IMG/VR virus record: IMGVR_UViG_3300049181_000071
Coordinates: 1-42,297 of that record
Strand: one strand, 5' to 3'
Source of the DNA: a virus
DNA: 42,297 bases
Both the position numbers and the translations under genes were made by a program. How positions within the stretch are numbered: the stretch's first letter is position 1; each line of letters begins with the position of its first letter. The notes below the pieces were generated by a model. That model saw only the letters and a program-made list of their open reading frames with translations, ran no database searches and was not told the origin of the DNA. Of the stretch, positions 1 to 42,297 are shown in pieces.

Positions 1-1947
1 GCGACGGAGGGCGCCATCTACGGCGGGGCAGCGGCTGCAAACGACGCGGTGCTGCGCGGCGACGAAATCACCGCCGAGAAGATTGTCTCCGGCATGGGGC
101 ACGGCGCGCTGTTCGGTGGCGCCGTCGGAGGGGCACTCGGGGCAGCGGGGCCGCTCGCCTCTGCTGGCCTTTCGAAGCTGGTTCCGAAAAAGGAAGCGCT
201 GACGAAGCTGGCCCAGGAACAGGCCCTCAAAAGCGTTGCACGTGGAACCGACATTCGGCGTCTCGCGGGGCGCGCGACGGGCGAAGCGGCGGAGCAACGG
301 CTAGCGGCGACTGCAGACGACCTGCTGAACTACAAGTTCCAGTCGGGGCCGCAAAAGGGTGAGCGGGTGTTCGTGCCCGGGCGCAACGTGGACGAGCTGC
401 TCGGGCGCATCTCGACCGCGAAAGAAGAAATCGGCGCAGCGCTTGGCGGCGTCAAAAAAGAGCTCTCCGAGCAGATGGCGGCGGCCGGCAAAAACCCCGA
501 CGTGGGAGAGTTCCTGCGCCGCGTCAAAGAGCAAGTCACCGACCCGCTCATGAGCAGCAAGAGTCCGGGCGCCATGAGCAAGGCGCGGGCGGTAGAGCGG
601 GAGCTGGCCATCATCCGCCAGGAGCACGAGGCGCAGCTAGCAGCACGAGCGGCGGCCGAAGCTGGCGAGGTGGTGCCGGTGCGGCTCCCGGACGGTTCCA
701 CCCAGATGCGTCCGCGCACAGCTCCACCGTCGATGACGTTCGAAGAGCTCGATGCGGTCCGGGGGCGCCTGCGCGAGCTGTTCCAGCCGCAAGAGGCCGC
801 TGCCGGCGGCCTGACTCCGCCCCCTCCAAAGTCGGCCAAGTACCTCCAAAAGACGGAGCGAATCCTTGCTGACTACCTCAAGGAAAACGCCGCCGATGCC
901 CTCGTGCGCATGGGCGAGAACCCGAACGCCTTCAACGAGCTGAATCGCCAATTCCACAGCTTCCGGCAGCTTGAGCAGATTGCGGGCAAGAACGCGAACC
1001 AGGCGCTCGGCAACCGGATGATTTCGCCGTCCGACCATGCGCTCGGCATGGCGTCGTTCCTTGGCTCGATGGCTTCGGGCGGCGTCGGGGCGCTCGGCTC
1101 GATGGCTACCGGGGCGGCGGCAACGGTAGCGAACAAGCTCCTGCGCGAGCGCGGCAACTCCGTCGTCGCCGACATGGCGCGCCGGGCGGCCGAGATGGAC
1201 AGCTCCATCGACCGCGTCGCCCAGGTGCTGGCGGGGCGCGCCGAGAAAGGGAAAGCGCCTGCACTGGCGGCGGCGTTCCAGGGGGAGAACCTGCGCGAGA
1301 CCTACGACAAGACGGCAAATCGGGTGCGTGAGCTCGCCGTGCCGCAAGCCGCCATGACCCACGTCAGTAGCCTCATGCCCGAGGTGGCTGCGCAGTACCC
1401 GAACGTAGGCGCGGCGGTGTCCACGAAGCTGCTGGCCATTTATCAGCAGCTCGCCGCGAAGATTCCTCAGTCACGCAACGACGTGGGCGCCACGCTGACG
1501 CCGCTCGCCATCAAGGAACGGGTCACGCCTGCCGCTATGCGGTCGTTCCTGGCTAACGTCCGGGGCGCGCTCGAGCCGGAGAGGGTTATCGCCGACCTGG
1601 AGCATGGCGTCATCGACCGCGAGGCCGTCGAGGCGCTCAAGGCGGCTCACCCTCGGACGTTCCAGCAGCTCCGCGAAAAGGTCGCCGACTACGTCCAGCA
1701 CAACGAGACCGAGCTTCCCTACAAGCGCCGCGTGATGCTGAGCATGACGTTCGACTTCGTGGGGGACTCGTCGCTGCAACCGCAGCGGATGGCCGCTTCG
1801 CAACAGGTTGCACGGTCGCTCTCGATACAAGAGGCCGCGCAGGACGCTGCGATGGTGAAGCCGAAAACCGGCAATCCGGGCGTGGACAAGCTCGGCAAAT
1901 CGATGACTACGCCGATGGACTCGGCGCTTTCTGGAGGCACGACATGA
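1..1947 (+). CDS. C-terminal part of a large glycine/alanine-rich virion (ejection-type) protein; 5' end off the window
   Basis: The frame is open from base 1, giving 648 residues with no start needed inside the window. The first ~60 residues are Gly/Ala-rich and hydrophobic (GGAVGGALG, residues 36-44), like a membrane-inserting glycine zipper. The rest is charged and helical, with long Ala/Glu/Lys/Arg coiled-coil stretches. The same frame is open at the right end of the window (41905-42297), so both pieces probably belong to one gene of at least 779 residues. Its position after the tail and internal-protein genes suggests a DNA-ejection (internal core) protein. Similar proteins also occur as cellular or prophage proteins of unknown role, so the function is inferred from context only. 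No catalytic motif seen. Overlaps the next gene by 4 nt (ATGA). Confidence 0.7.
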   Translation, partial: ATEGAIYGGAAAANDAVLRGDEITAEKIVSGMGHGALFGGAVGGALGAAGPLASAGLSKLVPKKEALTKLAQEQALKSVARGTDIRRLAGRATGEAAEQRLAATADDLLNYKFQSGPQKGERVFVPGRNVDELLGRISTAKEEIGAALGGVKKELSEQMAAAGKNPDVGEFLRRVKEQVTDPLMSSKSPGAMSKARAVERELAIIRQEHEAQLAARAAAEAGEVVPVRLPDGSTQMRPRTAPPSMTFEELDAVRGRLRELFQPQEAAAGGLTPPPPKSAKYLQKTERILADYLKENAADALVRMGENPNAFNELNRQFHSFRQLEQIAGKNANQALGNRMISPSDHALGMASFLGSMASGGVGALGSMATGAAATVANKLLRERGNSVVADMARRAAEMDSSIDRVAQVLAGRAEKGKAPALAAAFQGENLRETYDKTANRVRELAVPQAAMTHVSSLMPEVAAQYPNVGAAVSTKLLAIYQQLAAKIPQSRNDVGATLTPLAIKERVTPAAMRSFLANVRGALEPERVIADLEHGVIDREAVEALKAAHPRTFQQLREKVADYVQHNETELPYKRRVMLSMTFDFVGDSSLQPQRMAASQQVARSLSIQEAAQDAAMVKPKTGNPGVDKLGKSMTTPMDSALSGGTT

Positions 1948-19957: not shown

Positions 19958-20255
19958 TGACCTGTCGTCCGAAGTGGCTAGCCTGTTCGCCGACTGCGGG
20001 AGCTACGCGGCCGACCGAGCGCCGCTGGCGTTTGCGGCCCGCCTCTCGTCGCACCGAAGCAAGCGGCTGGCTTACAGGTACGACTACAACGCTCGCGTAA
20101 CCCTCGAGCTCAAGGTCGCGCGCCGCAAACGTGAGCTGGCCCGGCAGCTGTCGAGCGTCAGCCCCTACATGCTCTCGTGCGTGCGCTGCCGTCACGAGTT
20201 TTCGTCCGTCGCAAACCTCAACAGGCACGACTGGTGCTGCAAAGGGAAGCCGTGA
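19947..20255 (+). CDS. C2HC zinc-finger protein (102 aa)
   Basis: ATG lies 11 nt inside the end of the nuclease gene. The C-terminus carries a single finger: Cys78-x2-Cys81-x12-His94-x2/3-Cys97/98 (CVRCRHEFSSVANLNRHDWC), strikingly like a eukaryotic C2H2 finger with conserved Phe and Leu. The rest is a basic Arg/Lys helix. Suggests a small DNA-binding accessory to the nuclease just upstream, with which it is translationally coupled. Confidence 0.65.
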   Translation: MPFDDLSSEVASLFADCGSYAADRAPLAFAARLSSHRSKRLAYRYDYNARVTLELKVARRKRELARQLSSVSPYMLSCVRCRHEFSSVANLNRHDWCCKGKP

Positions 20256-20485
20256 ACTACCGCTACCACTCAACCCGATGTCGCCATGGCTTCGATCGCA
20301 GCGTCGTCCCCTGCCCGGGCTGCGGCGACAAGTGCCCGCTGGACAAGGTCGAGGCGCGACGATTCGAGCGAGCCGCGCTGGGCAAGCGGCAGCGGGAGAG
20401 CCGAGCTACGCCGCGACACGCCGCGGGCTACTCCGACTCTGAGACGCGCGGGCGGGGCAATCGCAATGCGGCGAGGGGCGGGTGA
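20252..20485 (+). CDS. Zinc-knuckle basic protein (77 aa)
   Basis: GTG overlaps the previous stop (GTGA). Contains STRCRHGFDRSVVPCPGCG then KC, a Cys cluster near the N-terminus, and an Arg/Gly-rich low-complexity tail (SDSETRGRGNRNAARGG). Probably a nucleic-acid-binding protein. Not recognised further. Confidence 0.55.
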   Translation: MNYRYHSTRCRHGFDRSVVPCPGCGDKCPLDKVEARRFERAALGKRQRESRATPRHAAGYSDSETRGRGNRNAARGG

Positions 20486-20733
20486 TGGAGCGCCACGACA
20501 AGCCCGTTGCGGAGCTAACCCACATCGAGCTGCTCAGGGAATGCGCCGACTGGATGAGCGACATCAACAGCGCTTATTGGGAGGCTCAAGAGGGAATGGC
20601 GCCGAGTGAGAACCGTGGCAAGGCGCTGCTGTCTCGGCTGTACGAGCTGGCCGACAAGCTCGACTCGGCCGAATGGGCACTGTGCCGCGTCGTTCATGAG
20701 CACACGCCTCAGGCCTTCAAGGTGAAGCTGTGA
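20485..20733 (+). CDS. Small helical early protein (82 aa)
   Basis: ATG at 20485 overlaps the previous stop (TGATG); GTG at 20482 is an alternative. All-helical with ELTHIELLRECADWM and ALLSRLYELADKLDSAEW, spaced like a helical bundle. No cysteine cluster or catalytic motif. Unknown function. Confidence 0.5.
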   Translation: MERHDKPVAELTHIELLRECADWMSDINSAYWEAQEGMAPSENRGKALLSRLYELADKLDSAEWALCRVVHEHTPQAFKVKL

Positions 20734-20954
20734 CCCGCCTGCTAGGCAAGGGCGAGGGCCATACCGTGGTCATTCTGACGGGTGAGGAATCGGCGCTGAT
20801 TCGCCGCGTGCTGGAGGAGGGACCGGTGGTTCCGGACGACCAGCTCCAGGAGGCCGAGCGCGCCTTCAATCGCGGCGTCGCGCGCGGCACCGAACGCATC
20901 AAGGGCGAGTTTGCTGAGCTGCAGGCGGAGCAGAAGGCGCGGAAGAAGACATGA
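20730..20954 (+). CDS. Small early protein (74 aa)
   Basis: GTG overlaps the previous stop (GTGA). N-terminal TVVILTGEESALIRRVLEEG is followed by a charged helical C-terminus (FAELQAEQKARKKT). Possibly a small regulatory or structural factor of replication. Not recognised. Confidence 0.5.
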   Translation: MTRLLGKGEGHTVVILTGEESALIRRVLEEGPVVPDDQLQEAERAFNRGVARGTERIKGEFAELQAEQKARKKT

Positions 20955-21256
20955 GCGAAAAAGAATACCTCGTGACCACCTACGAGCCGCTGCAGGTCTC
21001 GCTGTGCCTTGGCTCAGGGCTGCGTGCCATTTTCCGAAACGACGACGGCAGCAAGCACACGTCGCCGGTCGCTGCCGTGGCAGTCTGTCGGGTGCGCCGC
21101 GATTGGTACCGAAACGGTCGCCGCGTCTCCAGTGACGGCGTCGAGCGTCAGATATGCGGTGTGCTCTCCTATCCGGATGAAGGGTTCAGCATCTGTGAAG
21201 ATGTGAGCAATTTCCTTGGGTACCTGCAGCCGGGTGAGGAGCTCGAAGAAAAGTGA
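20951..21256 (+). CDS. Hypothetical early protein (101 aa)
   Basis: ATG overlaps the previous stop (ATGA). Beta-rich (YLVTTYEPLQVSLCLGSGL, then AVAVCRVRRDWYRNGRRV) and ends in an acidic tail (PGEELEEK). Lies directly upstream of the helicase and overlaps it by 1 nt. Not recognised. Confidence 0.5.
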   Translation: MSEKEYLVTTYEPLQVSLCLGSGLRAIFRNDDGSKHTSPVAAVAVCRVRRDWYRNGRRVSSDGVERQICGVLSYPDEGFSICEDVSNFLGYLQPGEELEEK

Positions 21257-22707
21257 TGGCGGCAGAAGACGAAGGTGGCTGGCTGCCGGAAGATGACGAA
21301 GCGTCCAACGTCCGCTCGCTTCCGGCCGCGTTCAACCACACCGACTTAGGCAACGCGGAGCGTCTGATTGCGCACTACCGTGACCGCGTGCACTACAGCG
21401 GGCAGCGTAAAAAGTGGCTCCTTTGGGACGGCACACGCTGGCGATGGGACGAGACTTTCGCCATCGAACGCATGGCCAAGCGAGCTGTTCGCAAGATTCG
21501 CCAAGAGGCCGCGTCGCTCGACGGGAAAGAGGCCACGCGCGTCTTCCAGTTTGCCCTGCAGTCCGAGTCCGCAAAGGCCATCAAAGCCATGGTTGGACTC
21601 GCTCAGTCCGAGGAAGGCGTTCCTATTCTGGTGTCCGACCTGGACGCGGACCCGTACTTGCTGAATGCCCCCAACGGCACCATCGATCTTCGCACCGGGG
21701 AGATTCGGGACCATCGCCGCACTGACTTGATCACTCGAACCACTGGGGTCAAGTACGATGCAGATGCGCAGTCCGAGCTATGGGACCGCGTGTTACTCGA
21801 AGCGTGCGGCAGCGACTCTGAGCTCGCGTTGTACCTCCAGTACGTCATCGGTTACTCGCTGATCGGTCTCCCGCTCGAGCGCGCGCTGTTCTTCCTTTAT
21901 GGCCCACCTGGGACCGCCAAGAGCACGCTCATCGACGCCTTCCACGCTGCGCTAGGCGACTACGCGCAAGCTGCTGACTTCGACACGTGGCTACTCAAGC
22001 CCCAAGTCGGCGGCAACCGCGGCGACCTCGTGCGACTCGCCGGAGCCCGCCTGGTGACGTCTAGCGAGACGAAGCCCGGGGTGAAGTGGGACGAGAAGCT
22101 ACTCAAGGGCATCACCGGCGGTGACATCCTCACTGCCTGTGCAAAGTACGAGAATGAGGTGTCCTTTAAACCAGCTTGCACCTTGCTTTTCGCCGCAAAC
22201 GACGCGCCTGCGGCACGCGAAGACGATGACGGTTTCTGGGCCAGAATGCGCAGAATTCCGCTAACCCACCAAATACCCATCGAGCGTCAAGACAAAGGTC
22301 TAAAGCGTCAGCTTGCCGAGCCTGAGCATCAGCAGGCAGTTTTAGCTTGGGCTGTCAAGGGCTGTGCGATGTACAGCGCCGCAAAGGGGTTCCCCAAATG
22401 CGCCGCCGTCGAGGAGTCGACGACCGAGTACCGCGCGGAGCTGGACCACTTTTCGACGTTCCTTTCCGACAGGACTGAAATGGGCGAGGGGTACTTCGTG
22501 TCTCGCCGTGACCTCCGCAGGGCCTACGTGGCATGGGCGGAGGAGGTCGGCCGGAAAGTGCTGCTGGACGATAAGGCAATCGTCAAAAAGCTCAGGTCGA
22601 AGCGTTTTGAGGAGCTACCACCGCGACATGGTTACGCAATGTGGGGCGGACTCCAGCTGAAGGCTCTTGGCCAATCGTCCATGCCAGACGACTCAAGGTG
22701 GAGCTAG
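21256..22707 (+). CDS. SF3 / P4-type DNA helicase lacking a primase domain (483 aa)
   Basis: Phage replication helicase of the P4/D5 family. N-terminal D5-N-like part (LLWDGTRWRWDETFAIERM, then YLLNAPNGTIDLRTGEI) leads into the ATPase: Walker A GPPGTAKST at residues 216-224, the B' region with TSSETKPGVKWDEKLLKGI, and sensor FAANDAPAA. C-terminal winged part after residue ~370. Typical P4-family proteins carry an N-terminal primase/polymerase domain; here the first 30 residues are an unstructured acidic stretch and no primase is seen. Third codon positions are A/T-richer than in neighbours. ATG at 21256; GTG 21253 is possible. Confidence 0.88.
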   Translation: MAAEDEGGWLPEDDEASNVRSLPAAFNHTDLGNAERLIAHYRDRVHYSGQRKKWLLWDGTRWRWDETFAIERMAKRAVRKIRQEAASLDGKEATRVFQFALQSESAKAIKAMVGLAQSEEGVPILVSDLDADPYLLNAPNGTIDLRTGEIRDHRRTDLITRTTGVKYDADAQSELWDRVLLEACGSDSELALYLQYVIGYSLIGLPLERALFFLYGPPGTAKSTLIDAFHAALGDYAQAADFDTWLLKPQVGGNRGDLVRLAGARLVTSSETKPGVKWDEKLLKGITGGDILTACAKYENEVSFKPACTLLFAANDAPAAREDDDGFWARMRRIPLTHQIPIERQDKGLKRQLAEPEHQQAVLAWAVKGCAMYSAAKGFPKCAAVEESTTEYRAELDHFSTFLSDRTEMGEGYFVSRRDLRRAYVAWAEEVGRKVLLDDKAIVKKLRSKRFEELPPRHGYAMWGGLQLKALGQSSMPDDSRWS

Positions 22708-22794
22708 GTGAGGGTGAAGACCAAATCTCGAGAAGTCCTCTTAGAACCCTCTCATGAGGAAAGTTCTGGGGAATGGGTCACCTACCCTCACCTG

Positions 22795-22814
22795 CCTCAC
22801 CTGGTGGGGTTTTT
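22795..22814 (+). terminator. Intrinsic terminator after the helicase
   Basis: CCTCAC (22795-22800), loop CTG, GTGGGG (22804-22809) form a 6-bp stem with one G-U, followed by TTTTT (22810-22814). It would end the rightward early operon. Bases 22708-22794 hold no convincing gene; an ORF reading across this region is antisense to the lipoprotein gene. Confidence 0.6.
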
Positions 22815-22851
22815 GCCGCGCAGCGGGACTCGTACGCGCGCGCGAGCCGCG

Positions 22852-23154
22852 TCACTGCTCCTCGGGCTGACTACATCGCACTACCAGCAGGTTCGCTGGC
22901 CTGTCGTACACCTGGACGTTGGTCGTCTGCGCCTCAGGCGGCCCGTAGGTCTGACTCTGAACGGTCGTGCCGGTCGACCACTGCTGGCGGTCGAGCTCGG
23001 TGTACCCGTCCGGGCATTCGTCGCTGGCGGCCGCGTAGCAGACCGATGCAGCCCCGCAGCGGATCTCGTAGGTGTCGGGCGCAATCAGCGTTCTGGAGGC
23101 CGCCCAGCCGCAGCCAGAGGCCAGCAACAGGGCGAGCGAGAGCCATTCCCTCAT
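22852..23154 (-). CDS. Lone minus-strand lipoprotein, moron / lysogenic-conversion candidate (100 aa)
   Basis: Short hydrophobic signal LSLALLLASGC with lipobox Cys15, so predicted to be lipidated and anchored in a membrane. The mature part has Cys in IRCGAASVCYAAASDECPDG and a last Cys in LLVVRC, a layout shared with small cellular lipoproteins that pair Cys residues, often in Myxococcota by my memory. It is the only gene on its strand in a block of otherwise rightward genes. Such isolated cell-envelope genes often alter the lysogen surface or block superinfection. Start lies in one arm of an inverted repeat. No clear promoter found. Confidence 0.7.
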   Translation of the reverse strand: MREWLSLALLLASGCGWAASRTLIAPDTYEIRCGAASVCYAAASDECPDGYTELDRQQWSTGTTVQSQTYGPPEAQTTNVQVYDRPANLLVVRCSQPEEQ

Positions 23155-23218
23155 TTGCCCAAGGCGACACCAGAGCGCCCCACGGCGTCAAGCCCGGTGC
23201 ATCGCCGCCTCGGGCAAA
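23154..23218. repeat. 13-bp inverted repeat between lipoprotein and packaging genes
   Basis: Arms TTTGCCCAAGGCG (23154-23166) and CGCCTCGGGCAAA (23206-23218) match at 12 of 13 positions, separated by 39 bp. The left arm includes the first base of the lipoprotein start codon. Could be an operator pair or a long hairpin. Bases 23155-23264 otherwise hold only the divergent leaders of the two flanking genes; a small hairpin ATCCT-GAA-AGGAT is at 23241-23253. Confidence 0.55.
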
Positions 23219-23264
23219 ATGGTCCAGGCCGCTTGACCAAATCCTGAAAGGATGTCACTGACAA

Positions 23265-23606
23265 ATGACTGACATGGGCGAATCAGACGACTCCGAGCAT
23301 GCCCCGCTGGCTCCGCGTGGCCGGCTCGTGATTCTGTCGCTACGGGATATCGACGCCATCGAGGACCCGACCGCCAAGCGCCGGGCGATGCTGGACAGGC
23401 TCCAGCGCATCTCCGACCTGGCCGAGGCGCGTTGCTACACGAACAAGCGCGGCGAGCCGGTGCCCACGCCCGACACGGCGACGATGATTCGCGTCGAAGA
23501 GGTCGCGCTCGAGAAGCTCGGTGTTGGACCGGCCAAGGCGGCGACGAAGGGGGCTGACCTGAGCGTGTTCAGCGGCGGCAAGTCCGCGGATCGGAAGACA
23601 GCGTGA
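23265..23606 (+). CDS. First gene of the packaging block, hypothetical (113 aa)
   Basis: ATG at 23265 preceded by AAAGGA about 12 nt upstream. Helical, with DPTAKRRAMLDRLQRISDLA and a Ser/Lys-rich tail. Its position at the start of the packaging block, followed by two tiny genes and one larger gene before TerL, makes it one of two candidates for a small terminase subunit. Sequence gives no helix-turn-helix support, so this stays unassigned. Confidence 0.55.
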   Translation: MTDMGESDDSEHAPLAPRGRLVILSLRDIDAIEDPTAKRRAMLDRLQRISDLAEARCYTNKRGEPVPTPDTATMIRVEEVALEKLGVGPAKAATKGADLSVFSGGKSADRKTA

Positions 23607-23833
23607 AGTGCTCTAAGCTCATCTTCAAGGGCTCGCGTGCCTACATCAACGGCAACGAGACCAGCGTCATCGAGACGGTCGACAACCAGATCAGCGCCAA
23701 GGCGGACAGCATCGAAGCGGTCGGCAACTGGGTGGTCGTCACGTGCGGCGAGTTCGTTCGCGCGTGGCCGTTCACTGACATCCTGGCGCTCGTGCCCATC
23801 GTCGAGGGCAAGGCGAAGGGCAAGGCGGCGTGA
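23603..23833 (+). CDS. Small hypothetical protein (76 aa)
   Basis: GTG overlaps the previous stop (GTGA). Beta-rich: SKLIFKGSRAYINGNETSVI, then NWVVVTCGEFVRAW, then a Lys/Gly/Ala tail. The compact alternation of strands suggests a small OB- or SH3-like fold. Not recognised. Confidence 0.5.
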   Translation: MKCSKLIFKGSRAYINGNETSVIETVDNQISAKADSIEAVGNWVVVTCGEFVRAWPFTDILALVPIVEGKAKGKAA

Positions 23834-23973
23834 AGCACCCGTGGTTCAAGCCCAGTCCGTGGCTTAGCGCCGAAGAAGCGGCGCTCGTCGCGGTGCAATC
23901 GCTACTAGCGGTCAACATCTCCAACGACCGCCACGTCGTAAAGCGCGGCGATTGGTACGGAGTGGAGCTGTGA
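23830..23973 (+). CDS. Very small hypothetical protein (47 aa)
   Basis: GTG at 23830 overlaps the previous stop and its TGA overlaps the next GTG (GTGA). Reads HPWFKPSPWLSAEEAALVAV and ends RGDWYGVEL. Aromatic-rich and compact. Coupled at both ends, which is the main support for a real gene. Confidence 0.5.
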   Translation: MKHPWFKPSPWLSAEEAALVAVQSLLAVNISNDRHVVKRGDWYGVEL

Positions 23974-24512
23974 GCGATGCGCCCGAGCCCGTGGCTGATG
24001 CTGGCGCTTCGGATGGCAGCGGACCGGTTTTTTCGCGCCCGCAAAACGCTGACAAACTCCTGACAGCGACAATCGGCGAGCGCATCGCCGGCATCGTCAA
24101 GACGCCCGGCATCGACGATGTGCTGGACGCCATCGAGTCCGAAGCCGACGTGGTCAAAGAGAACGTCAATCTGCTCGAAGGTACAACGCAAACCCGTGCC
24201 GAGCTCGAGCGGTGGACGGCGCTGTACCAAGAGACGCTCGAGCAGTGCAACCAGCGGCTGATACCGCGCGGCGTCGTGCTGGGCGCGTGCTGCCCGAACC
24301 CGAACGGCCTGGGCGCGGTGTTTGCTGGCATCGACCACGACCAGCGCGACTACCTCGTGACCCTTTCCTTGCCTGCTCGGGAGCGCGTCGACTTCGAGGC
24401 CGCGAGCAAAGAGACGTTCGTCCGCTGGGCCATCAACGTCATCTGCGACGAGGTCATCAGCCAGCGCGAAACGTACATGCGGCGCGGCGGCGGTCTGCTG
24501 GAGCGTCGCTGA
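23970..24512 (+). CDS. Candidate small terminase subunit (180 aa)
   Basis: GTG at 23970 overlaps the previous stop. Immediately upstream of the terminase large subunit, the usual position of TerS. N-terminal ~30 residues disordered (SDAPEPVADAGASDGSG); the middle is a charged coiled coil (TRAELERWTALYQETLEQ); the C-terminal part holds CDEVISQRETYMRRGGG. No clear HTH. The assignment rests on position and a central oligomerising helix; an alternative is a head-assembly accessory. Confidence 0.45.
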   Translation: MSDAPEPVADAGASDGSGPVFSRPQNADKLLTATIGERIAGIVKTPGIDDVLDAIESEADVVKENVNLLEGTTQTRAELERWTALYQETLEQCNQRLIPRGVVLGACCPNPNGLGAVFAGIDHDQRDYLVTLSLPARERVDFEAASKETFVRWAINVICDEVISQRETYMRRGGGLLERR

Positions 24513-26057
24513 TTGAACCTCGAGTCGCTGTTCACCATGCCGGAAGGCTTCGGCTTGACGACGGCGACGACGCTGCAGCGCGCCATCTGTCGCGCCGAGA
24601 CTGGTGAGCCGCTCGATGAGCTCGCCACCGACCCCGCAACCGTGGAGGCACTGGGCGGGCTACAGGCATGTGAGCTGCTGAGGCAGAACATCGGCAACTC
24701 ACCTGCCCTTGTTTGCCTGCTCGCCGCCATCCGCTCGGCCAAGTCACTCAAGGTCGCGTGCAAGGCCTTTCGCGCCACGCAAACGGTCGACGTAAGCCGA
24801 CTGCGCGAGGGTGAGATAGCCCGCTACAGCATTGTCAGTCTCGACATGGACAAGGCGCGCGCGACGTTCGAGCACTTCATCGGCTCGGTCAAGGCGTCGC
24901 CGCTCTTGTCGCAAACGCTCATCAGCGAACGCGCCGAGTCGGCCTACGTGATGCACCCGAGCGGCAAGGCCGTGGAGGTCAAGGTCGTGGCCGGAAAGAA
25001 AGCGGGCGGCTCGCTCGTGTCGCGCTGGAGCATCGGCGTGGCGTTCGACGAGGCCCCACGCATGCAAGGCCAGGAAGACGGCGTCGTGAACCTGCCCGAC
25101 GCGCTGAGCGCCATCCGCGGCCGCATGCTGCCCGGCGCACAGATAGACCTGCTGGGCTCGCCCTGGGCGCCACGTGGGCCCATCTACGACCTGTACATCG
25201 ACCGGTTCGGGCGGCCTGGAGCAGACGTGCTGTTCATGGTCGCCAAGGGGCCGGACATGAACCCGTTCCACTTCACGCCGGAGCTGTGCGCCAAGCTCGA
25301 GCGCGAGGACCCGCGGGCGCACCGCACCGACGTGCTGGCCCTGTTCGCCGACCCGGAAGATTCGCTGCTCTCCAGCATCGACGTGGAGGCGTGCTGCCGG
25401 AAGGCGCCATTGCACCTCGAGCCGAACGAGCAGGAGCACGTTGCGGCCATCGACCCGGCCAACCGCCGCAACGCCTGGACGCTGACCATCGTCCGCCCTG
25501 ATGCGAACGGCAACCCCGAGGTGGCCTACTCGCGACAATGGATCGGCAGCAAGAGTGCTCCCCTCAAAAGCTCTCGCATCTTCGCAGAGATTCGCCCGGT
25601 GCTCGAGCTCTACAAGATCGAAGGCAACGCGCTCTGGACGGACCAAGCGAGCTTCGACGACAAGTGGGAGCTGGCGAACCAGGCCGGCATTGCGTTGATG
25701 CCCGACCCGTTCACGGACAGCGAGTGGAAGGCCCATGCGGTCGCGCTCGAGAAGGTCGTCAGCGAGCGGAACATCAGCCTGCCGCCGAACGCGGCGATGC
25801 GCGCGGACATCCTGGGCGTCCAGAAGCGGCTCACGGCGCGCAGCTATCACATCATCCTGCCCAACACGGGCGATGGGCGACATGGGGACTACGTGCCGTC
25901 GCTCTGCCTCGCGCTCAAGCACCTGCCCGGCGCGCGCGTCACGGACGTCATGAGCAACATCGACCCGGACGAACGCCGGATTCTCGACTTCATCAACAGC
26001 AGCAAGAGCAACCCGATGAAAAGCGCCGCTGACCGGCTGATGGGAGCGTTTCGATGA
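24513..26057 (+). CDS. terL: Terminase large subunit (514 aa)
   Basis: DNA-packaging motor with ATPase and nuclease domains. Start taken at TTG directly after the previous TGA; an in-frame ATG at 24537 is possible. ATPase: degenerate Walker A LLAAIRSAKSLKVA (Arg74-x2-Lys77-Ser78) and Walker B VAFDEAP (Asp179-Glu180). Coupling region LGSPWAPRGPIYDLY follows. Nuclease domain: HVAAIDPANRRNAWTLTIV, then ALWTDQASFD, then a late Asp (HGDYVPSLCLAL) as the RNase-H-like acidic residues. Full length. Sequential packaging by headful would fit the permuted contig ends. Confidence 0.85.
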   Translation: MNLESLFTMPEGFGLTTATTLQRAICRAETGEPLDELATDPATVEALGGLQACELLRQNIGNSPALVCLLAAIRSAKSLKVACKAFRATQTVDVSRLREGEIARYSIVSLDMDKARATFEHFIGSVKASPLLSQTLISERAESAYVMHPSGKAVEVKVVAGKKAGGSLVSRWSIGVAFDEAPRMQGQEDGVVNLPDALSAIRGRMLPGAQIDLLGSPWAPRGPIYDLYIDRFGRPGADVLFMVAKGPDMNPFHFTPELCAKLEREDPRAHRTDVLALFADPEDSLLSSIDVEACCRKAPLHLEPNEQEHVAAIDPANRRNAWTLTIVRPDANGNPEVAYSRQWIGSKSAPLKSSRIFAEIRPVLELYKIEGNALWTDQASFDDKWELANQAGIALMPDPFTDSEWKAHAVALEKVVSERNISLPPNAAMRADILGVQKRLTARSYHIILPNTGDGRHGDYVPSLCLALKHLPGARVTDVMSNIDPDERRILDFINSSKSNPMKSAADRLMGAFR

Positions 26058-26314
26058 ACCTCGCCTTGCTTGCGTATGAGATGCGCGCCGCCGGCATCAA
26101 GAGCCTGTCGGTCGAGCTGGATGCTGCGACGGTGTCAGCGTCGGCCACGAACGACTTGGCCACCCTTCCACCTGACGCTCCCGAGCCCGAGCAGAAGGAG
26201 CCGAACGCCTGCATCGAGCCCGGTTGCACGAACGAGCGCGGCGGCATCTTCGGCGGCATCGGCAGTGAGCGGTGCCGGATTCACGCATTGCAGCGAGCAG
26301 GGGTCAGAACATGA
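26054..26314 (+). CDS. Small Cys-containing protein between TerL and portal (86 aa)
   Basis: ATG overlaps the TerL stop and its TGA overlaps the portal ATG (ATGA). N-terminal helix (ALLAYEMRAAGIKSLSVEL) and a C-terminal Cys/His set CIEPGCTNERGGIFGGIG then RCRIH, a likely zinc knuckle. Location inside the packaging genes suggests a role in terminase or portal assembly, but nothing more can be said. Confidence 0.55.
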   Translation: MNLALLAYEMRAAGIKSLSVELDAATVSASATNDLATLPPDAPEPEQKEPNACIEPGCTNERGGIFGGIGSERCRIHALQRAGVRT

Positions 26315-28272
26315 GCGCACCCGTCCTTTGGTACCAAGAGAGCGACAAGGAAGCGGCAGCGGCCGCCATGGTCAACGCCGCCCGCGCGCTGCGAAACGAC
26401 CAGGGCGACCAGCGCCGCCGCGATGCCGACGACGCCATGACGCTGTGGTCCGGCACCATCAACCACGGCTTCACCGGCGCGAACGCCATGAGCATGCTCG
26501 GGCTCATCGAGGACACCGCCGGGTACAACCTGGTCCAGTCCGTCACTGACACGAAGGTGAACACGACGCTGCGTAACGAGATTCGCCCCTTGCTCATGTG
26601 CCAAGGCGGAGACTCCGAGCTGCGCGAGAAGGCCGAGGCGATGCAAGATGCCGCGGACGGGCAGAGCTACGAGCTGGGCCTAGACGACGAGCTCGAGGAG
26701 GTCGCCTGCTGGAACGGCTACATCTTCGGCAACGGCGGCGTGGAGTTCTGGGCCGACACGGCCAGCTCGCGCATCATGGCCAGCCCTGTTTTCCACTGGC
26801 AGTACTTCGTGAGCCGCCAGGAGTCGCGCTACACGACGCGCCCGCAACAGATGTTTGCCCGCCACGTGATGCCGCGTGACGTGCTGCTTTCGTTCCTTGC
26901 CGACCAGCCCGCCGAAGTGCGCAAGGCCGTCGAGGAAGCCCCGAGCGCCGGAGCCGACGATACGCGCGACTTTTCGAGCGACGAGCCGGGCAAGATCGTG
27001 GACCTCGTCGTCGTCTGGAAGGCCTGGCACCTTCCCAGCAAACGGGTCGACCTGAGCAGCCCCGAGGCGTTCGGCAGGAACAAGGCCGGCAACACCGTGA
27101 AGCCAAACCACGACGGCTTGCACATGGTGTGCGTCGAGTCCAAGACGCCGTTCGCGCTCATCACGCGCCCATGGCCGCACTCCTATTTCCCGGTGGCCTG
27201 GTTCAAGCCGAATCGCAACCCTGGCAGCTTCTGGGGACGCGGCGAGCCGGAGATTCTGGCGCGGAGCCAGGTCGAGATGAACCAGTGGTCCGAGCGCGAG
27301 TACGTGGTGCTCGACCGGTACGCGCACCCGAGCATCATCCTGCCCAAGGGCGCCAAGCTGAACCCGGCGCAGCTCAACAACGGAAATTTCAACATCTACC
27401 AGATCGAAGGCGGCATGGCGCAGGCCCCGCAGATCTGGAACCCCACGAGCGTCCCTGCCGAGCTCATCGGCCGCCGCGAACGCCTCGCCGCCGAAGCGAA
27501 GGACCAGCGCGGCATGAGCGACATGAGCATGGCCGCTCGCAAGCCGGTGGGCGTCGACCACAAGCCCGGCATGGCCTACCTGGCCAACACCGAAACCATC
27601 CGCCACACCGCCGAGTTCCGCGCGTGGCGCCGCTTCAAGCTCGACTCCTACCGCAATATCATTCGCTGCTTCAAAGAGCTGAGCGAGCACGACCCCAACT
27701 TCGAGGTCGTCTACGAGAAGGATAAGCAGCTCATCACGTCGAAGATGACGACCATCAACATCGACGAGAGCAAGTACCGGCTCAAGGCCAAGCCGACCAA
27801 CCTGTTTTCGCAGGACCCGGCGCAGCAGGCCGACCAGATCGCCGACTTCGTGGATCGCCAGCTGCTCCCGCCGGACGCGCTGTTCGACGCCGTCGAGTCC
27901 CCGGACCTGCAAGCCCTGGCCGACGACCGCAAGGTAATGCGCAAGAACGCCATCAAGCGCGTCAAGCTGGTGGCGAAGGGGCCCTACACCGAGGACCTGA
28001 TGCCGCAGGCCTATCACGATCTCGCGACGATGAAGTCCGAGGCGCTGAAGATGGCCAACAGCATCGAGCTGAACGAGGAAAAGGGCGACAAGCTCGACCG
28101 CGTCACCAAGTTCCTGGCCGATGTGGACGAGCTCTTGGGCATCGCCGAGAAGCCCGCCGCGGACGCCGCCGCCGCAGAACAGGCCGCCATGGCGCAAGCC
28201 GCTGCCGGTGGAGCCGCCGCGCCCGCCGTAACCATGCCACCCCAGGCGATGCCGCCCGACCAGCTCCAATGA
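26311..28272 (+). CDS. Portal protein (653 aa)
   Basis: ATG at 26311 overlaps the previous stop; the frame upstream to 26272 belongs to the preceding gene. Length, position between TerL and scaffold, and pattern fit podovirus portals: an N-terminal helix, a YKKxx-type region RAGHP-like FQYFVSRQESRYTTRP, an ALITRPWPHSYFPVAWFKP block followed by FWGRGEPEILARSQVEMNQW (typical of portal families), and a C-terminal helical barrel rich in Ala/Lys ending in Ala/Gln-rich low complexity. The long antisense ORF is a shadow. Confidence 0.8.
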   Translation: MSAPVLWYQESDKEAAAAAMVNAARALRNDQGDQRRRDADDAMTLWSGTINHGFTGANAMSMLGLIEDTAGYNLVQSVTDTKVNTTLRNEIRPLLMCQGGDSELREKAEAMQDAADGQSYELGLDDELEEVACWNGYIFGNGGVEFWADTASSRIMASPVFHWQYFVSRQESRYTTRPQQMFARHVMPRDVLLSFLADQPAEVRKAVEEAPSAGADDTRDFSSDEPGKIVDLVVVWKAWHLPSKRVDLSSPEAFGRNKAGNTVKPNHDGLHMVCVESKTPFALITRPWPHSYFPVAWFKPNRNPGSFWGRGEPEILARSQVEMNQWSEREYVVLDRYAHPSIILPKGAKLNPAQLNNGNFNIYQIEGGMAQAPQIWNPTSVPAELIGRRERLAAEAKDQRGMSDMSMAARKPVGVDHKPGMAYLANTETIRHTAEFRAWRRFKLDSYRNIIRCFKELSEHDPNFEVVYEKDKQLITSKMTTINIDESKYRLKAKPTNLFSQDPAQQADQIADFVDRQLLPPDALFDAVESPDLQALADDRKVMRKNAIKRVKLVAKGPYTEDLMPQAYHDLATMKSEALKMANSIELNEEKGDKLDRVTKFLADVDELLGIAEKPAADAAAAEQAAMAQAAAGGAAAPAVTMPPQAMPPDQLQ

Positions 28273-28279
28273 GGACCCC

Positions 28280-29374
28280 ATGAGCGAAGCACAAGCCGCC
28301 CCCGCAACGCCTGCCACGCCCCCGGCCGCGCCGGCCATCAACGAAGCTGCCGCCCTGGCCATGATGGGCATGGGGCCCGCTCCGGAGCCGGCAGCGAAGG
28401 CCGCGGAGACCAAGACCAGCCCCTCAAAAGCTGCTCCGTCTGCCGAGGACGACGACGCGACCGACCCGCTCGACGAGTCCCTGTACTCCGACGAGGCTCT
28501 AGCTACCCCCGAGCAGCTCAAGGCGGCCCGTGCGCGGCTGTTCAAGCACCTCGGCAAGGTCAACGAGCTCACTCGCAAGTCCCACCGGGCTCACGGCGCG
28601 GCCGAGGTGCGCGAAAAGAAACTCGAGCGGCGCGAGGAGAGCATCAAGGAACGCGAGACACGCGTCTCGGCCATGGAGCGACTCCAAAATCAGGCCATCG
28701 AGGACTTCGAGTCCGGCGACACGACCCGATTTCTCACCTCCGTTGCCAAGCTGAGCAAAACCGGAGACCCCGTTGGCTTCTGGCGCAACTGCAGCATCGC
28801 TCTAGCCAAGGGCGAAGCGTTCAAGCCGGCTGAAAAGGCCGCCATCGCTGCCGATCCGGAGCTCAAGGCGCGACTGGAGGGCCTCGAGCGCGTCGTTCAG
28901 GAGCGCAACGCGCGCGAGGAGAACGAGCAGATCGAAAGGCTCAAGACGCAGCACTTCGAGACGGCGAAATCGAGCGCCGACAAGTTCCCTCTTGTCGCAG
29001 CGTTCTGCGCAGAGAAGCCCGAGCGAGCACGTGAGGGCATCGCCGCTGTCATGCACGAAGAGTTCTTACGTATTGGCAGAGCTGTTGACATATCAACAGC
29101 GTGTGGCATTATCGAGGCAGCTCTAAGCGAGCGATACGAGTTGTCCCAGCGTGCCGGCGGTAAAACGAACGGCGAAAAAGGGACTACCGGCTCCGAGCCG
29201 GATGCTGGACGGGAAACCAGCAAGGAACCTCCGAAACCCGAGACGGCGATAGCGCCAGCAACAGTCCCTGCGGCTCTTGCGTCTCATCCGGGTTCCGCGA
29301 CACGCGCTGAGTCCGCTGAGGAGCGACGGCAGCGGGAAATTCGCGAGTTCGAAGCGCTGGGTTTCTTCGGATAG
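28280..29374 (+). CDS. Scaffolding protein (364 aa)
   Basis: ATG 7 nt after the portal stop. Low-complexity Ala/Pro-rich N-terminal ~55 residues, an acidic stretch (SAEDDDATDPLDESL), then a very charged Glu/Arg/Lys helical core with EKKLERREESIKERETR. C-terminus again Pro/Ala-rich, ending in FEALGFFG. Acidic, helical, no globular domain, directly upstream of the capsid gene: the standard look of a scaffold. The DNA of its last third contains a likely promoter (29085-29112) and unusual codons there. Confidence 0.7.
   Translation: MSEAQAAPATPATPPAAPAINEAAALAMMGMGPAPEPAAKAAETKTSPSKAAPSAEDDDATDPLDESLYSDEALATPEQLKAARARLFKHLGKVNELTRKSHRAHGAAEVREKKLERREESIKERETRVSAMERLQNQAIEDFESGDTTRFLTSVAKLSKTGDPVGFWRNCSIALAKGEAFKPAEKAAIAADPELKARLEGLERVVQERNAREENEQIERLKTQHFETAKSSADKFPLVAAFCAEKPERAREGIAAVMHEEFLRIGRAVDISTACGIIEAALSERYELSQRAGGKTNGEKGTTGSEPDAGRETSKEPPKPETAIAPATVPAALASHPGSATRAESAEERRQREIREFEALGFFG
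29085..29112 (+). promoter_or_regulatory. Putative promoter inside the scaffold gene, upstream of the capsid gene
   Basis: TTGACA (29085-29090), 16-bp spacer, CATTAT (29107-29112; 4 of 6), the same -35 and spacing as PL and PR. A perfect 8-bp inverted repeat GCTGTTGA-CATA-TCAACAGC (29081-29100) overlaps the -35. Local codons such as ATA, TCA and ACA are rare elsewhere. It would start a transcript ~300 nt before the capsid GTG. Confidence 0.5.
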
Positions 29375-29419
29375 ACCCGAAACGGAAGCCCCGCGGCGGA
29401 CACGCCAGGAGGTTTCCCC

Positions 29420-30739
29420 GTGTTCAAAGCCCAACTCAACGATCTAGGTCAGGCCAGCTGCGCCTACGCCGATCCGTGCGTCGCATTCGCGGCAGAAACG
29501 ATCGCCGGCAGCAACGTATTCAAGGTCCTTTTCCCCGACGACGTCAGTTCGCCCAACTACGAGGCGTCCAAGGCGTTCGGGATGATGAAGAAGGACACGA
29601 AGTTCGCGTCCGACGGCACCAAGTACGTCGTCGTGAGCATCGCTCCGGGCGCTGGCGGCTCCGCCAACATCCAGACGGCGATTGCGAACCAGAGCGCGAC
29701 CCAACAGGTCCGCTTCTCGCTCGGTCGTAAGAAGCTGTACGAGGTCGGCAGCATCGATGGCGAGGCCCTCGCGGTCGCCAAGAACGGCGGCGGCGACAAC
29801 TCCAAGGGAGCTATCGTTGACATCGTCAAGCACGCGATGAGCAAGGCTCGCTACGCCTTCTCGCGCACGCTCTCTCGAGCGGTGTGGGGCAGCGGCGGCG
29901 GCGCTCGCGGTCGCATCAGCGGCGTGACGACCGGCACCAGCATCACGCTCTCGAACCGGGCCGACGTGTCCGGCTTCTTCAAGGGCATGGTTCTGCAGTC
30001 GGCCCCGAACGACGGCCTGACCACCGTCACGAGCCCGAACGCGGGAACAGCGACCATCACCAGCGTCACGCGCAAGACCAGCTCCGGCACGGCGACCCTG
30101 ACCGCTTCGGCGGCCTGGGACACCCTCATCGCGGGCTGCGCGGCGAACGACTACCTGTTCCGCCAGGGCGACTACAACGCCTACCCGAACGGCATCCCCG
30201 GTTGGTCACCCATCGCCGACCCGACCGTCTCGGACTCGTTCTTGAGCGTCAACCGCTTCACCGCGGGCGACCTCAACTACCTGTCCGGCTACCGCGTTGC
30301 CGGCGCGGGACAGCCCAAGAGCCAGACGCTCGTCGACATGGCGACCGAGGCCAAGCAGAACGGCCTCGACGCTCGCTCGGTGCTCATGAACCCGCTCGAC
30401 ATGAAGGACGCCTTCAAAGAGCAGGCGACCTACAAGAGCATCCCGGTCAGCACCGACAATCCCAAGGTCGGTTACAAGGGCATCGAGCTGCTTGGCTCGG
30501 TCGGCGCCATGACCGTGCTCGACGATCTGGACGTGCCGCAAGGCTACGCCTGGCTCATCAACCCCGAGAAGGACTGGACTTGCCGCAGCGCTGGCGAGAC
30601 CCCGATGCTGTTCGATTTCGACGGCATCAAGTCCTTCCTGCGCAACCCCAACGGCGACGACTACCAGTTCCGCATGGGTTGCTACCTCAACTTCGAAAAC
30701 GCCGAACCCAACAACGCCGTCGTCGGCTCGTTCGCGTGA
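29420..30739 (+). CDS. Major capsid protein (439 aa)
   Basis: GTG start with AGGAGG 7 nt upstream (29407-29412), the strongest ribosome site in the late block, as expected for the most abundant virion protein. HK97-fold pattern: extended N-terminal arm, SKARYAFSRTLSRAVWG spine helix, and a closing beta region (MTVLDDLDVPQGYAWLINP). Between residues ~170 and ~245 is a Thr/Ser/Ala-rich inserted segment (RISGVTTGTSITLSNRADVS...) with beta strands, like an Ig-like or I-domain insertion, which is larger than in simple HK97 capsids. Confidence 0.82.
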   Translation: MFKAQLNDLGQASCAYADPCVAFAAETIAGSNVFKVLFPDDVSSPNYEASKAFGMMKKDTKFASDGTKYVVVSIAPGAGGSANIQTAIANQSATQQVRFSLGRKKLYEVGSIDGEALAVAKNGGGDNSKGAIVDIVKHAMSKARYAFSRTLSRAVWGSGGGARGRISGVTTGTSITLSNRADVSGFFKGMVLQSAPNDGLTTVTSPNAGTATITSVTRKTSSGTATLTASAAWDTLIAGCAANDYLFRQGDYNAYPNGIPGWSPIADPTVSDSFLSVNRFTAGDLNYLSGYRVAGAGQPKSQTLVDMATEAKQNGLDARSVLMNPLDMKDAFKEQATYKSIPVSTDNPKVGYKGIELLGSVGAMTVLDDLDVPQGYAWLINPEKDWTCRSAGETPMLFDFDGIKSFLRNPNGDDYQFRMGCYLNFENAEPNNAVVGSFA

Positions 30740-30751
30740 AAGGAGCCTGAA

Positions 30752-31252
30752 ATGCCCGCAGATACCAACCTCGGACTCGCCAAAAAGGGCCTCTCCGGCA
30801 ACGTCACGCAACAGGGTGGCCTCGCGACCATCGACGAGTCGCTCGCCGTCTACGTCATGTACGACAAGACGGCGGCGGACGGTGCGGCCTCGACGGCCAC
30901 GACGGACACCATCGTTTGGGTCAACCCCTTTTCGGTGCCGGTCTACATCGTCAGCGCGTACGGCGTCGCCACGGGCGCCGGCATCACCGCCGACGCCTCG
31001 AACAACGCGACCATCACCTTCCGCTCCATCGACCTGGCTGGTGGCTCAAGCGCCGCAGCGCTGACCATCACCACGGACGTGGCGGGCGGCACCTGGACGC
31101 AAAACCGGGCGAAGGCCATCACCAGTCGCACCGTGGCGAATGCCGCGGTCCCGGTCGGCGGCGGCATCACCTTCAGCATCGCCAAGGGCGGAACGGGCGT
31201 CGTGGTCCCGGTCAGCAAGTTCGTCATCAAGTGCTTCAAGGCGGAGAGCTGA
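30752..31252 (+). CDS. Head-associated beta-rich protein (166 aa)
   Basis: ATG preceded by AAGGAG. Thr/Ala/Gly-rich, mostly beta-strand (VNPFSVPVYIVSAYGVATG, then ITFRSIDLAGGS), no charged coiled coil. Position right after the capsid suggests a capsid decoration or head-stabilising protein. The composition (many Thr, few charges) resembles phage decoration proteins of the jelly-roll type. Not recognised as a named family. Confidence 0.6.
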   Translation: MPADTNLGLAKKGLSGNVTQQGGLATIDESLAVYVMYDKTAADGAASTATTDTIVWVNPFSVPVYIVSAYGVATGAGITADASNNATITFRSIDLAGGSSAAALTITTDVAGGTWTQNRAKAITSRTVANAAVPVGGGITFSIAKGGTGVVVPVSKFVIKCFKAES

Positions 31253-31255
31253 GCC

Positions 31256-31899: not shown

Positions 31900-31919
31900 G
31901 CGGAGAACCGTAGAAGCGT

Positions 31920-40031: not shown

Positions 40032-41905
40032 TGGCCGGCGGCTACATCATCGACCCCGCAACGGGAATGCCGGCAGTGCAGACCGCAGGCGGCGGCTTCA
40101 TGCCCCTGCCGCTCAGTGACGACGAGCTTCGCGCTGCCGGAGCCCAGCTCGGCCCGATGGGCCCGCCCGCTCCCGGCCCGGACCTCCGAGTCGCCGGCCC
40201 CGGTGGCGGCGGTTCGATGGACCTCGGAGACGCCCCGCCAGACCCGGGCGTCTTTGCCGCTCAGGATCAGGCGGCTCAGGTCGCCGCGATGCGCGCCCAG
40301 CTCGCGCCGCAGCAACCGGCCGCGAACGAGCACCCGACCCGAGCACAAGAGCCGGGCTGGATGCCGACTGGGCAAGGCGCGCCATCCGCGCCGGCTCGAA
40401 TGAACCCCGCTGACCTCGCTCAGCATCGCCAAGCGCCCTCCCAGGCAGACCAAAACACTGAGCAAGGCAGCGGGGGTATCAATGACCCGCTCGTTCGCCA
40501 GGCCATGGAGGAGGCCATGCGCGGCGGCGGTGGCGGCGGCGGACCACGTGGGCTCGGAGTGACCGGGCAGACGCTCAAGTACAAGCAAGCCGGGCACGTC
40601 CCTGAAGAGGTTTCCGCGGCCGCCCGTGAGGCGCAGGGGGCGAGCGACGCCTACAACGAGCAGCTCGCCATGTCGCTCAACACGCGGCAGCAGCAGGCCT
40701 ACGAGGCGACGCAGAGCGAGTTCGCAGCACGCGCCGGGCAGCTCCAGGCAGTAGCCGAGCGCCAGGCGGAGCAGCGCCGCATGCTGGGCGACTACGAGGC
40801 CAAGCGCGACGCCGTTGCGGCCGAGGCGGCCCAGCTCAAGGCGCCGCAAATGGAGGAGTACTGGGGAAGCCGCAGCACGACGGCCAAGATGGCCACGGCT
40901 ATCAGCATCGCGCTCGGTGGCGCGCTCCAGGGACTGCGCGGCGGGCAAAACCCCGGGCTCGAGATGAGCAACCAGGAGATCGAGCGCTGGATTGCCGGCA
41001 AGCGCGAGGAGTACTCCCGCGCGCGCGACAAGGTCAGCGACGCCGACAGTCAGTACGGGCGCATGGTCCGCATGTTCGAGTCGGAGAACCTGGCCGAGCA
41101 GCACCTACGCGAGCAGGCCTACACGGTCCGCGATGCGATGCTGAAGGACTACGCGGCGCGCATCGGCACTCCGAGCGCGCTCGAGGCGTACAACCAGGCA
41201 GCGCTGCAGACCGAGGCGCAACGAGCCGCCCTTCGCCAGCAGGCCTACGCGGACGCGGGCGCCGAGGTCGAGGAGAAGCTGTCGATGCAAGGTGGCGGCG
41301 GCGGGCGGCCCAAGGGCGTGCTCGACATGCTTCGGGCTGGCGCCGAGGCCAAGGGTCTGCGCGATAGGATCGAGGGCCAGGACGGGAAGCCTGCCTTTCA
41401 GCGCGAGGTTCAAAACGAGAAGGTCGAGGGCATCACTGGCGCTCTCGAGGCCATCGAGGCCGCCGACGAGGTCGAGTCAGCGCTTGGGCGGCTCGGTGGC
41501 GACTCGGACATCGACGATCCGCTCAGGGGAGCATGGGACTCGACGCTGGGCAACATCCCCGGAACCGAGGCTCGCGCAACGAAGCAACGGCTGCAGCAGC
41601 AGACACGGCTGCTCGCGCGCGGCATCCAGAAGTCGCTCGGCAAGTCCGACAATGACGCCAAGCTCGCCGACGAGATGGCCGAGGGCGGCGGAGCCGTCAG
41701 TCAGCGCCGGATGGCCGCCAAGACGGCTCGGCAAAAAGCCATCGGTAGCCTCCAGACCACGATTTCGTCCCTCACGCCCGACCAGCAGCAATCCCTTTTG
41801 CGCTCTCTCGAGGCCAACTCGCCGACTCGAGCCGCTCAGGTCCGCGCGGCCATTGCGGCAGTCGGGACGCCGCAACGAGCAGCCTCCGAGCAGGTGGTGC
41901 AGTAG
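40031..41905 (+). CDS. Internal virion protein, coiled-coil / Gly-rich (624 aa)
   Basis: ATG overlaps the previous stop by 1 nt. N-terminal ~180 residues are Pro/Gly/Ala/Gln-rich, with a Gly run around 175 (MRGGGGGGGPRGL). Residues ~195-470 are an almost continuous charged coiled coil, with a small hydrophobic patch near 290 (ATAISIALGGALQGL) that could insert in a membrane. C-terminal helix bundle. Size and composition fit a podovirus ejection protein. Overlaps the following gene by 1 nt. Confidence 0.6.
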   Translation: MAGGYIIDPATGMPAVQTAGGGFMPLPLSDDELRAAGAQLGPMGPPAPGPDLRVAGPGGGGSMDLGDAPPDPGVFAAQDQAAQVAAMRAQLAPQQPAANEHPTRAQEPGWMPTGQGAPSAPARMNPADLAQHRQAPSQADQNTEQGSGGINDPLVRQAMEEAMRGGGGGGGPRGLGVTGQTLKYKQAGHVPEEVSAAAREAQGASDAYNEQLAMSLNTRQQQAYEATQSEFAARAGQLQAVAERQAEQRRMLGDYEAKRDAVAAEAAQLKAPQMEEYWGSRSTTAKMATAISIALGGALQGLRGGQNPGLEMSNQEIERWIAGKREEYSRARDKVSDADSQYGRMVRMFESENLAEQHLREQAYTVRDAMLKDYAARIGTPSALEAYNQAALQTEAQRAALRQQAYADAGAEVEEKLSMQGGGGGRPKGVLDMLRAGAEAKGLRDRIEGQDGKPAFQREVQNEKVEGITGALEAIEAADEVESALGRLGGDSDIDDPLRGAWDSTLGNIPGTEARATKQRLQQQTRLLARGIQKSLGKSDNDAKLADEMAEGGGAVSQRRMAAKTARQKAIGSLQTTISSLTPDQQQSLLRSLEANSPTRAAQVRAAIAAVGTPQRAASEQVVQ

Positions 41906-42297
41906 TGGCGGAGACCGCTTTCGTCCAGCCCGAGGCGTACGACGCGGAAGGCAACGCGCTGCCGCCCGAGGCGGTTCCGCAGGCGGCTGCAGCGGGGAAG
42001 GCGTTCTTCAAAAAGGACGCTCGGGTGTACGCGCGCAACCATGCTGGTGAGCTCGTCACCCTCGCGCCCGAGGATGTGAGCCGTCCGGGCTACCAGATCC
42101 TGACGCCGGCCCAGGTGGCAGAGGCGCAGGCGAAGAAGCAGTACGGCGAGGGAGTCGGGGACGTCGTCAAGGCAGGTGCGGCGGGGCTCGCACGCGGCGC
42201 GACGCTCGGTGCCTCCGATGCAGTCCTGACCGCGGTCGGCGGCGACGACACCCGCAAGGCGCTGCAAGGCCTCCGGCAAGCGAACCCCATCACCAGC
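41905..42297 (+). CDS. N-terminal part of the large glycine-rich virion protein; 3' end off the window
   Basis: GTG overlaps the previous TAG by 1 nt. 131 codons remain open to the last base, and the frame matches that of base 1, so 1-1947 is its likely continuation. Residues ~20-90 include FFKKDARVYARNHAGELV and EAQAKKQYGEGVGD; then a helical hydrophobic part (VVKAGAAGLARGATLGASDA). Together with the left end it would give about 779 residues, or more if bases are missing between the ends. Confidence 0.7.
   Translation, partial: MAETAFVQPEAYDAEGNALPPEAVPQAAAAGKAFFKKDARVYARNHAGELVTLAPEDVSRPGYQILTPAQVAEAQAKKQYGEGVGDVVKAGAAGLARGATLGASDAVLTAVGGDDTRKALQGLRQANPITS

Follow-up and report, generated by a model that had tools for sequence, protein, structure and literature searches.

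The window analysed here, by which we mean the whole stretch of 42,297 bp, is an IMG/VR record (IMGVR_UViG_3300049181_000071) with a GC content of 65.7%. It encodes an integrase and RecT, and the phage is therefore probably temperate. The early block ends with a D5-type primase/helicase gene (21253..22707, plus strand; Pfam D5_N, 5.1e-35; PHROG DNA primase, 4.3e-105). The packaging/virion block opens with a 113-aa gene without a family match (23265..23606, plus strand) and also holds a 666-aa gene with a head-tail adaptor match. A further gene in this part of the window (24513..26057, plus strand) has no database match, and we take it to be a probable large terminase solely from its motifs (Walker-B-like GVAFDEAP, GSPW). 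Between the two blocks lies ORF 22852..23154 (minus strand, ATG start), which is divergent from the 113-aa gene and is predicted to encode a 100-aa outer-membrane lipoprotein. The gene call recovers it as the sole leftward gene from 13871 to 42297, confirming the initial annotation, in which it was the only leftward gene between 13.9 kb and the right end. Isolation on the opposite strand, or as a unit apart from the neighbouring genes, is a criterion for moron genes, and the ORF is isolated on the opposite strand. No near match to positions 20000-32000 was found in INPHARED, and an exact-peptide-word search for close relatives returned none for the ORF, the primase, the probable terminase or the 1053-aa virion protein. 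Joining the two ends of the record would make the open ORF at 41905..42297 (right end, plus strand, 131 codons) read through, in the same frame, into the open one at 1..1947 (left end, plus strand), as if the record were a circularly permuted complete genome; no end repeat was found.

The ORF is almost certainly a real gene. Its GC content at the three codon positions (0.60/0.55/0.84) resembles that of the phage's own genes, while the codon-position GC of the overlapping plus-strand ORFs (22708..23247 and 22773..23261) is not gene-like. With 12 phage genes as the training set for a codon model, the ORF scores +19.7, and its per-codon score was reached by none of 82 shadow ORFs. One might suspect a spurious antisense reading frame in a GC-rich intergenic stretch, given that antisense ORFs are common in a window of 65.7% GC and that the ribosome site looks weak by eye, but the codon score, the family profile and the conserved cysteines outside the search pattern (both described below) speak against it. 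The profile match refutes this explanation, to which we attach a negligible probability.

The leader of the gene contains an inverted repeat (23154..23218, minus strand) with 13-nt arms, TTTGCCCAAGGCG at 23154-23166 and CGCCTCGGGCAAA at 23206-23218, that are 92% complementary. None of 400 shuffled versions of the intergenic stretch matched the repeat, the leader RNA fold has a z of -1.86, and the 3' arm in the mRNA extends to the A of the start codon; the repeat could hide the ribosome site or act as an operator. On the other side of the gene, a strong RNA-like stem structure (22704..22798, plus strand) lies between the stop codons of the primase and lipoprotein genes. The plus-strand RNA from 22700 to 22830 folds at -60.4 kcal/mol (z -3.78; 0 of 200 shuffles as low), and in a scan of 1406 windows corrected for GC no other 131-nt segment of the record is as structured. 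Within 22681-22830, a long stem (AGGTGAGGGT/ACCCTCACCT) stands just ahead of a terminator-like stem with TTTTT (22791..22813, plus strand) that closes the rightward early block. No Rfam family was found for the structured RNA at 22700-22830, and a mir-241 match was set down to chance (E 0.14; it scores 20, the cut-off being 63). The early terminator that the gene was first said to follow is present as a stem and T run, but such sites do not exceed chance in a 4-kb scan (2 found vs. 3.1 expected; locally, 1 found vs. 0.3 expected). No sigma-70-like promoter site was found for the ORF, and the terminator-like stem belongs to the opposite strand, where it faces the early block. We infer that the leader repeat and the structured RNA may shield the gene from transcription on both sides, convergent as well as divergent.

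The predicted product has a short basic/hydrophobic signal peptide (residues 1-14) that terminates in LLLASG-C15, with Ala at -3 and Gly at +2, followed by a mature part containing C33, C39-Y-x-x-A43, C47-P-x-G-Y51 and C94. Because of the Ala at -3, the lipobox falls one residue short of the strict motif [LVI][ASTVI][GAS]C, as worded in PMC11893012; the signal and lipid Cys are present, and calling the lipobox clear was a slight overstatement. The lipid Cys is aligned in 59 of 59 family rows, with the start of most rows having been chosen by requiring a lipobox. The paired cysteines noted earlier in the short mature part number four (C33, C39, C47 and C94), all of them conserved across the family. 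In E. coli, lipoproteins without Asp at +2 are sorted to the outer membrane. None of 68 family members has Asp at this position, so an outer-membrane location is predicted by the E. coli rule. An AlphaFold2 model based on the 59-row alignment (mean pLDDT 77.5) has a strand-helix-strand-strand-strand arrangement, for which searches of the PDB and of viral folds gave no match below E 0.001.

Direct searches with the ORF returned no close relative. A weak tblastn match (E 1) led to an unannotated lipoprotein ORF of Variovorax, which in turn led to Burkholderia phage JC1, to 18 records of Salmonella or Enterobacteria phages and to several plasmids; a Gordonia tblastn match (E 0.8) was dropped, as it lies antisense within tail genes. 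Seven aligned relatives have the lipid Cys and four mature cysteines in common, and match two PHROGs of unknown function, phrog_9924 (7/7) and phrog_5685 (6/7). Viral sequences were searched with a DNA pattern for CYxxAxxxCPxGY, and genomes with a longer pattern. A family ORF was present in the locus for 52 of 58 viral pattern stretches, and 31 of 33 GTDB genomic stretches belonged to the family; the six viral loci without a family ORF and the two genomic loci were dropped. The core residues are conserved by construction, since the search pattern was derived from the window ORF and its Variovorax relative. C33 and C94, which are outside the pattern, are both present in 67 of 68 members, the exception being cut by a contig end. 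Alignment A2 omits 11 of the 68 extracted members (redundant, truncated or with long tails) and includes one (L088) with an extra N-terminal residue; for nine further members the script assigned no start. The 59-row alignment has ten invariant columns, all of which are present in the window protein.

Against a profile built without the window, the ORF is the only significant match among 878 frames (E 3.9e-12), and the mature part alone matches at E 1e-10. With the window-free profile the ORF reaches 37.8 bits, compared with 11.4 bits for the best of 5000 shuffles, and a profile from six relatives picked without the window-derived pattern still recovers it at 1.3e-7. By its sequence, the window protein falls within a widespread family of four-cysteine lipoproteins, of which it is a divergent member, and we consider its assignment to phrog_9924/5685 very probable. 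The family is large and apparently uncharacterised, and no published function was found for it in the portions of the literature surveyed. Pfam matches to plant thionin and DUF7402 fell below the cut-off and were dropped; PF24052 (‘Phage_lipoprotein’) matched one of 59 members, at 0.032, and did not match the window.

Among named phage proteins, orf62 of Salmonella phages L, ST64T and ST104 and gp17 of Burkholderia phage JC1 (phrog_9924/phrog_5685) belong to the same family as the window protein, sharing the lipobox, the four mature cysteines, the C..A...C..GY core and the C-terminal Cys. The window protein differs from them in its long branch and a longer loop ahead of C94, and by itself matches phrog_9924 weakly (E 0.035). 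T5 Llp and the Cor proteins of phi80, N15 and HK022 are likewise small outer-membrane lipoproteins with disulfide-capable cysteines, and Cor has a late-region moron position. The Cor PHROG (phrog_1119) matches three of seven members at full length (best 0.0014), a lead that was lost once signal peptides were removed; comparison with two Cor sequences gave no homology of the mature parts beyond the signal peptide (hhalign probability 0.1%). Lambda Bor is also a small outer-membrane lipoprotein encoded on the strand opposite the late genes, but it has two mature cysteines rather than four. A Bor lead noticed by eye was dropped after hhalign of the mature domain gave 0.2%, within the range of 30 column shuffles, and Bor is absent from the Pfam matches of the 59 members. 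Ltp of Streptococcus phage TP-J34, likened here by description, is another lysogeny-type lipoprotein but has a Gram-positive host; a PDB sequence search with family profile A1 returned no match named Llp or Ltp at E values up to 10.

The relatives recur in two kinds of position in phage genomes. Among 11 loci chosen for a suitable same-strand upstream gene, nine have a CI-type repressor directly or one gene upstream: it is directly upstream on the same strand in L013, L031, L032, L040, L048 and L054, directly upstream with a short and weaker match in L067, and separated by one gene in L055 and L066. In lambda, the slot downstream of CI is occupied by rexAB. At 15 of 39 deduplicated family loci both neighbours are antisense, compared with 17 of 199 control genes of similar size at the same loci (Fisher 1e-5). 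Both neighbours are on the same strand for 14 of the 39 viral members, so the antisense slot, though common, is not general. The 39 loci exclude eight near-duplicates and five edge cases, gene calls at family loci came from our own crude script, and 71 of the 81 listed immediate neighbours were scanned, the list comprising genes of up to 1200 aa. Antisense neighbours include tape-measure, P22 gp16-like and terminase genes, and at two loci (L016 and L039) the lipoprotein gene is divergent from a small-terminase gene, matching the arrangement in the window. According to a transcriptome study, genes lying antisense to lytic genes are a hallmark of moron loci (PMC7067206). Salmonella phages L and ST64T carry the family member in the immI region, the site held in P22 by sieA. 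P22 SieA is a different protein from the family lipoprotein, being a membrane protein and not a lipoprotein. In phage L the member is orf62, between genes 16 and 9, and is reported as being of unknown function (PMC8022706). With relatives that adjoin a CI repressor or stand alone antisense to late genes, the moron-type position first proposed for this envelope-lipoprotein gene is supported.

Absence of the ORF from related phages, which the initial annotation named as counting against its proposal, is not a clear-cut finding, as a family member occurs in one distant syntenic relative (G346) and is missing from another record. G346 has distant relatives of four window virion genes (26272, 29420, 35173 and 38334) with their order preserved, and its family member is leftward, opposite to the virion genes and beside a gene that weakly matches the window integrase (E 0.004). 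G345 (= L023) has two virion genes in common with the window, and the family member is absent. In a poorly resolved tree the window row does not group with the G346 copy and is nearest to cellular sequences from Variovorax, Ferriphaselus and Derxia, with weak support and a long branch; this placement was set aside because the resolution is too poor.

Searches of bacterial chromosomes and other phages, as the initial annotation had proposed, found relatives in phages, chromosomes and plasmids. The chromosomal and plasmid members are from Pseudomonadota, Nitrospirota, Bdellovibrionota and Myxococcota, and some chromosomes and small plasmids carry a member with no phage genes in view; matches to viral-locus genes at 1e-10 were obtained for only 6 of 65 genomic loci, in a comparison that had short flanking sequences and an incomplete reference set. 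At least 10 of 299 Pseudomonadota genomes have a family match at 1e-6 (a lower bound, with 18 candidates scored per genome), several of them carrying three copies, and around a Polynucleobacter genome 3 of 41 genomes have a family member. The family gene is accessory, not core, in bacteria. A 2.7-kb Enterobacter plasmid (L007) carries a member at 296-586 among only four annotated genes, which suggests selection for the lipoprotein outside phages. The protein could be a cellular-type envelope fitness factor, host-derived and phage-carried, by which the lysogen gains envelope stability or survives stress better, with no exclusion of phages. The spread over four bacterial phyla, the weakly supported long-branch proximity of the window row to cellular sequences and the tiny plasmid with few other genes all agree with such a factor, while the patchy occurrence among the near relatives of Polynucleobacter is unlike that of a core envelope gene. 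Adjacency to a CI repressor fits lysogen traits of any kind and does not decide between a fitness factor and exclusion. We hold the fitness factor to be a possible, if not the preferred, explanation.

A role in lysis, as an Rz1-like outer spanin that would act when the lytic cycle ends, is very improbable. Outer spanins are small outer-membrane lipoproteins, four cysteines are reported for 35 of 526 (PMC6139136), one family member (L018) adjoins an Rz-like spanin gene, and single members among the seven aligned gave weak spanin matches. The window gene is leftward, though, opposite all late genes and between the primase and packaging genes, and neither neighbour (the primase or the 113-aa gene) matches an inner spanin; a gene adjacent to, nested in or overlapping an inner-spanin gene is a criterion for outer spanins. 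Phage JC1 already has Rz/Rz1 (gp75/76) separate from gp17, and ST64T and ST104 appear in a list of phages having lambda-type spanins (PMC6139136). An early or lytic-phase surface blocker, made during infection rather than from the prophage, would resemble T5 Llp, which is expressed early in T5 infection according to a reference title in PMC9586334, and the leader hairpin could delay translation; the window integrase and the CI-operon placement of relatives favour the lysogen, and we judge expression of this kind unlikely.

We favour, with a probability of about 0.5, the reading that the ORF is a prophage accessory (moron) outer-membrane lipoprotein gene benefiting the lysogen, with exclusion as the likeliest single benefit. 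The coding score, family profiles, CI-adjacent and antisense positions, immI placement and patchy accessory spread all point to a moron. On this sequence evidence the gene is probably expressed from the prophage; phage exclusion specifically, argued by analogy, is a plausible but tentative assignment. In the lysogen, a leftward promoter belonging to the gene itself and located in the 110 bp between the ORF and 23265 would drive transcription, and the product would be exported by Sec, lipidated at Cys15 and, with Gly rather than Asp at +2, sorted to the outer membrane. The mature part would fold as a small alpha/beta domain with two disulfides, whose pairing is putative. The lipoprotein would most likely bind a presumed outer-membrane or periplasmic partner, altering the envelope to the lysogen's benefit, and other phages might then be excluded at adsorption or DNA entry, as T5 Llp jams FhuA from the periplasmic side.

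Precedents are the published accounts of receptor jamming by T5 Llp (PMC9586334), of mEp lipoproteins, for which phage exclusion was shown by expression (PMC11893012), and of Ltp, a prophage-expressed lipoprotein of the lysogeny module that blocks DNA injection (PMC3952083). Against exclusion, P22 mutants are reported to be complemented by an L prophage (PMC8022706), so the orf62-carrying prophage does not strongly block P22 entry in that setting; some members are also chromosomal or plasmid-borne. Of the interpretation in the initial annotation, a real envelope-lipoprotein gene in a moron-type position stands, and the L-prophage result argues against exclusion of P22-like phages.

More speculatively, and in our view rather unlikely, the family may consist of phage-borne exclusion lipoproteins of Gram-negative hosts, a widespread class that has so far escaped recognition, in which a lipid-anchored, two-disulfide periplasmic domain would jam outer-membrane receptors from inside. 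Its genes would be exchanged among CI operons, slots antisense to late genes and small plasmids, and would substitute for the missing sieA in L and ST64T. This lipoprotein family, which has no name, does turn up repeatedly where unrelated phages place prophage-expressed genes, the classic Salmonella phage L among them. If exclusion or host conversion were its role, a PHROG of unknown function would become a phage-exclusion or host-conversion family, and the immI content of P22-like phages without sieA would be accounted for.

Some loci have unusual arrangements. Two tandem family members from different branches adjoin the CI-like gene of L067 (3494-4023, minus strand). The member at L030 (4625-4885, plus strand) ends differently from the conserved C-terminal motif, in the way a frameshift would leave it, and is possibly a decayed copy. 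Two very large phage contigs (L035 and L045; 251 and 257 kb) have the family member beside a 438-aa gene.
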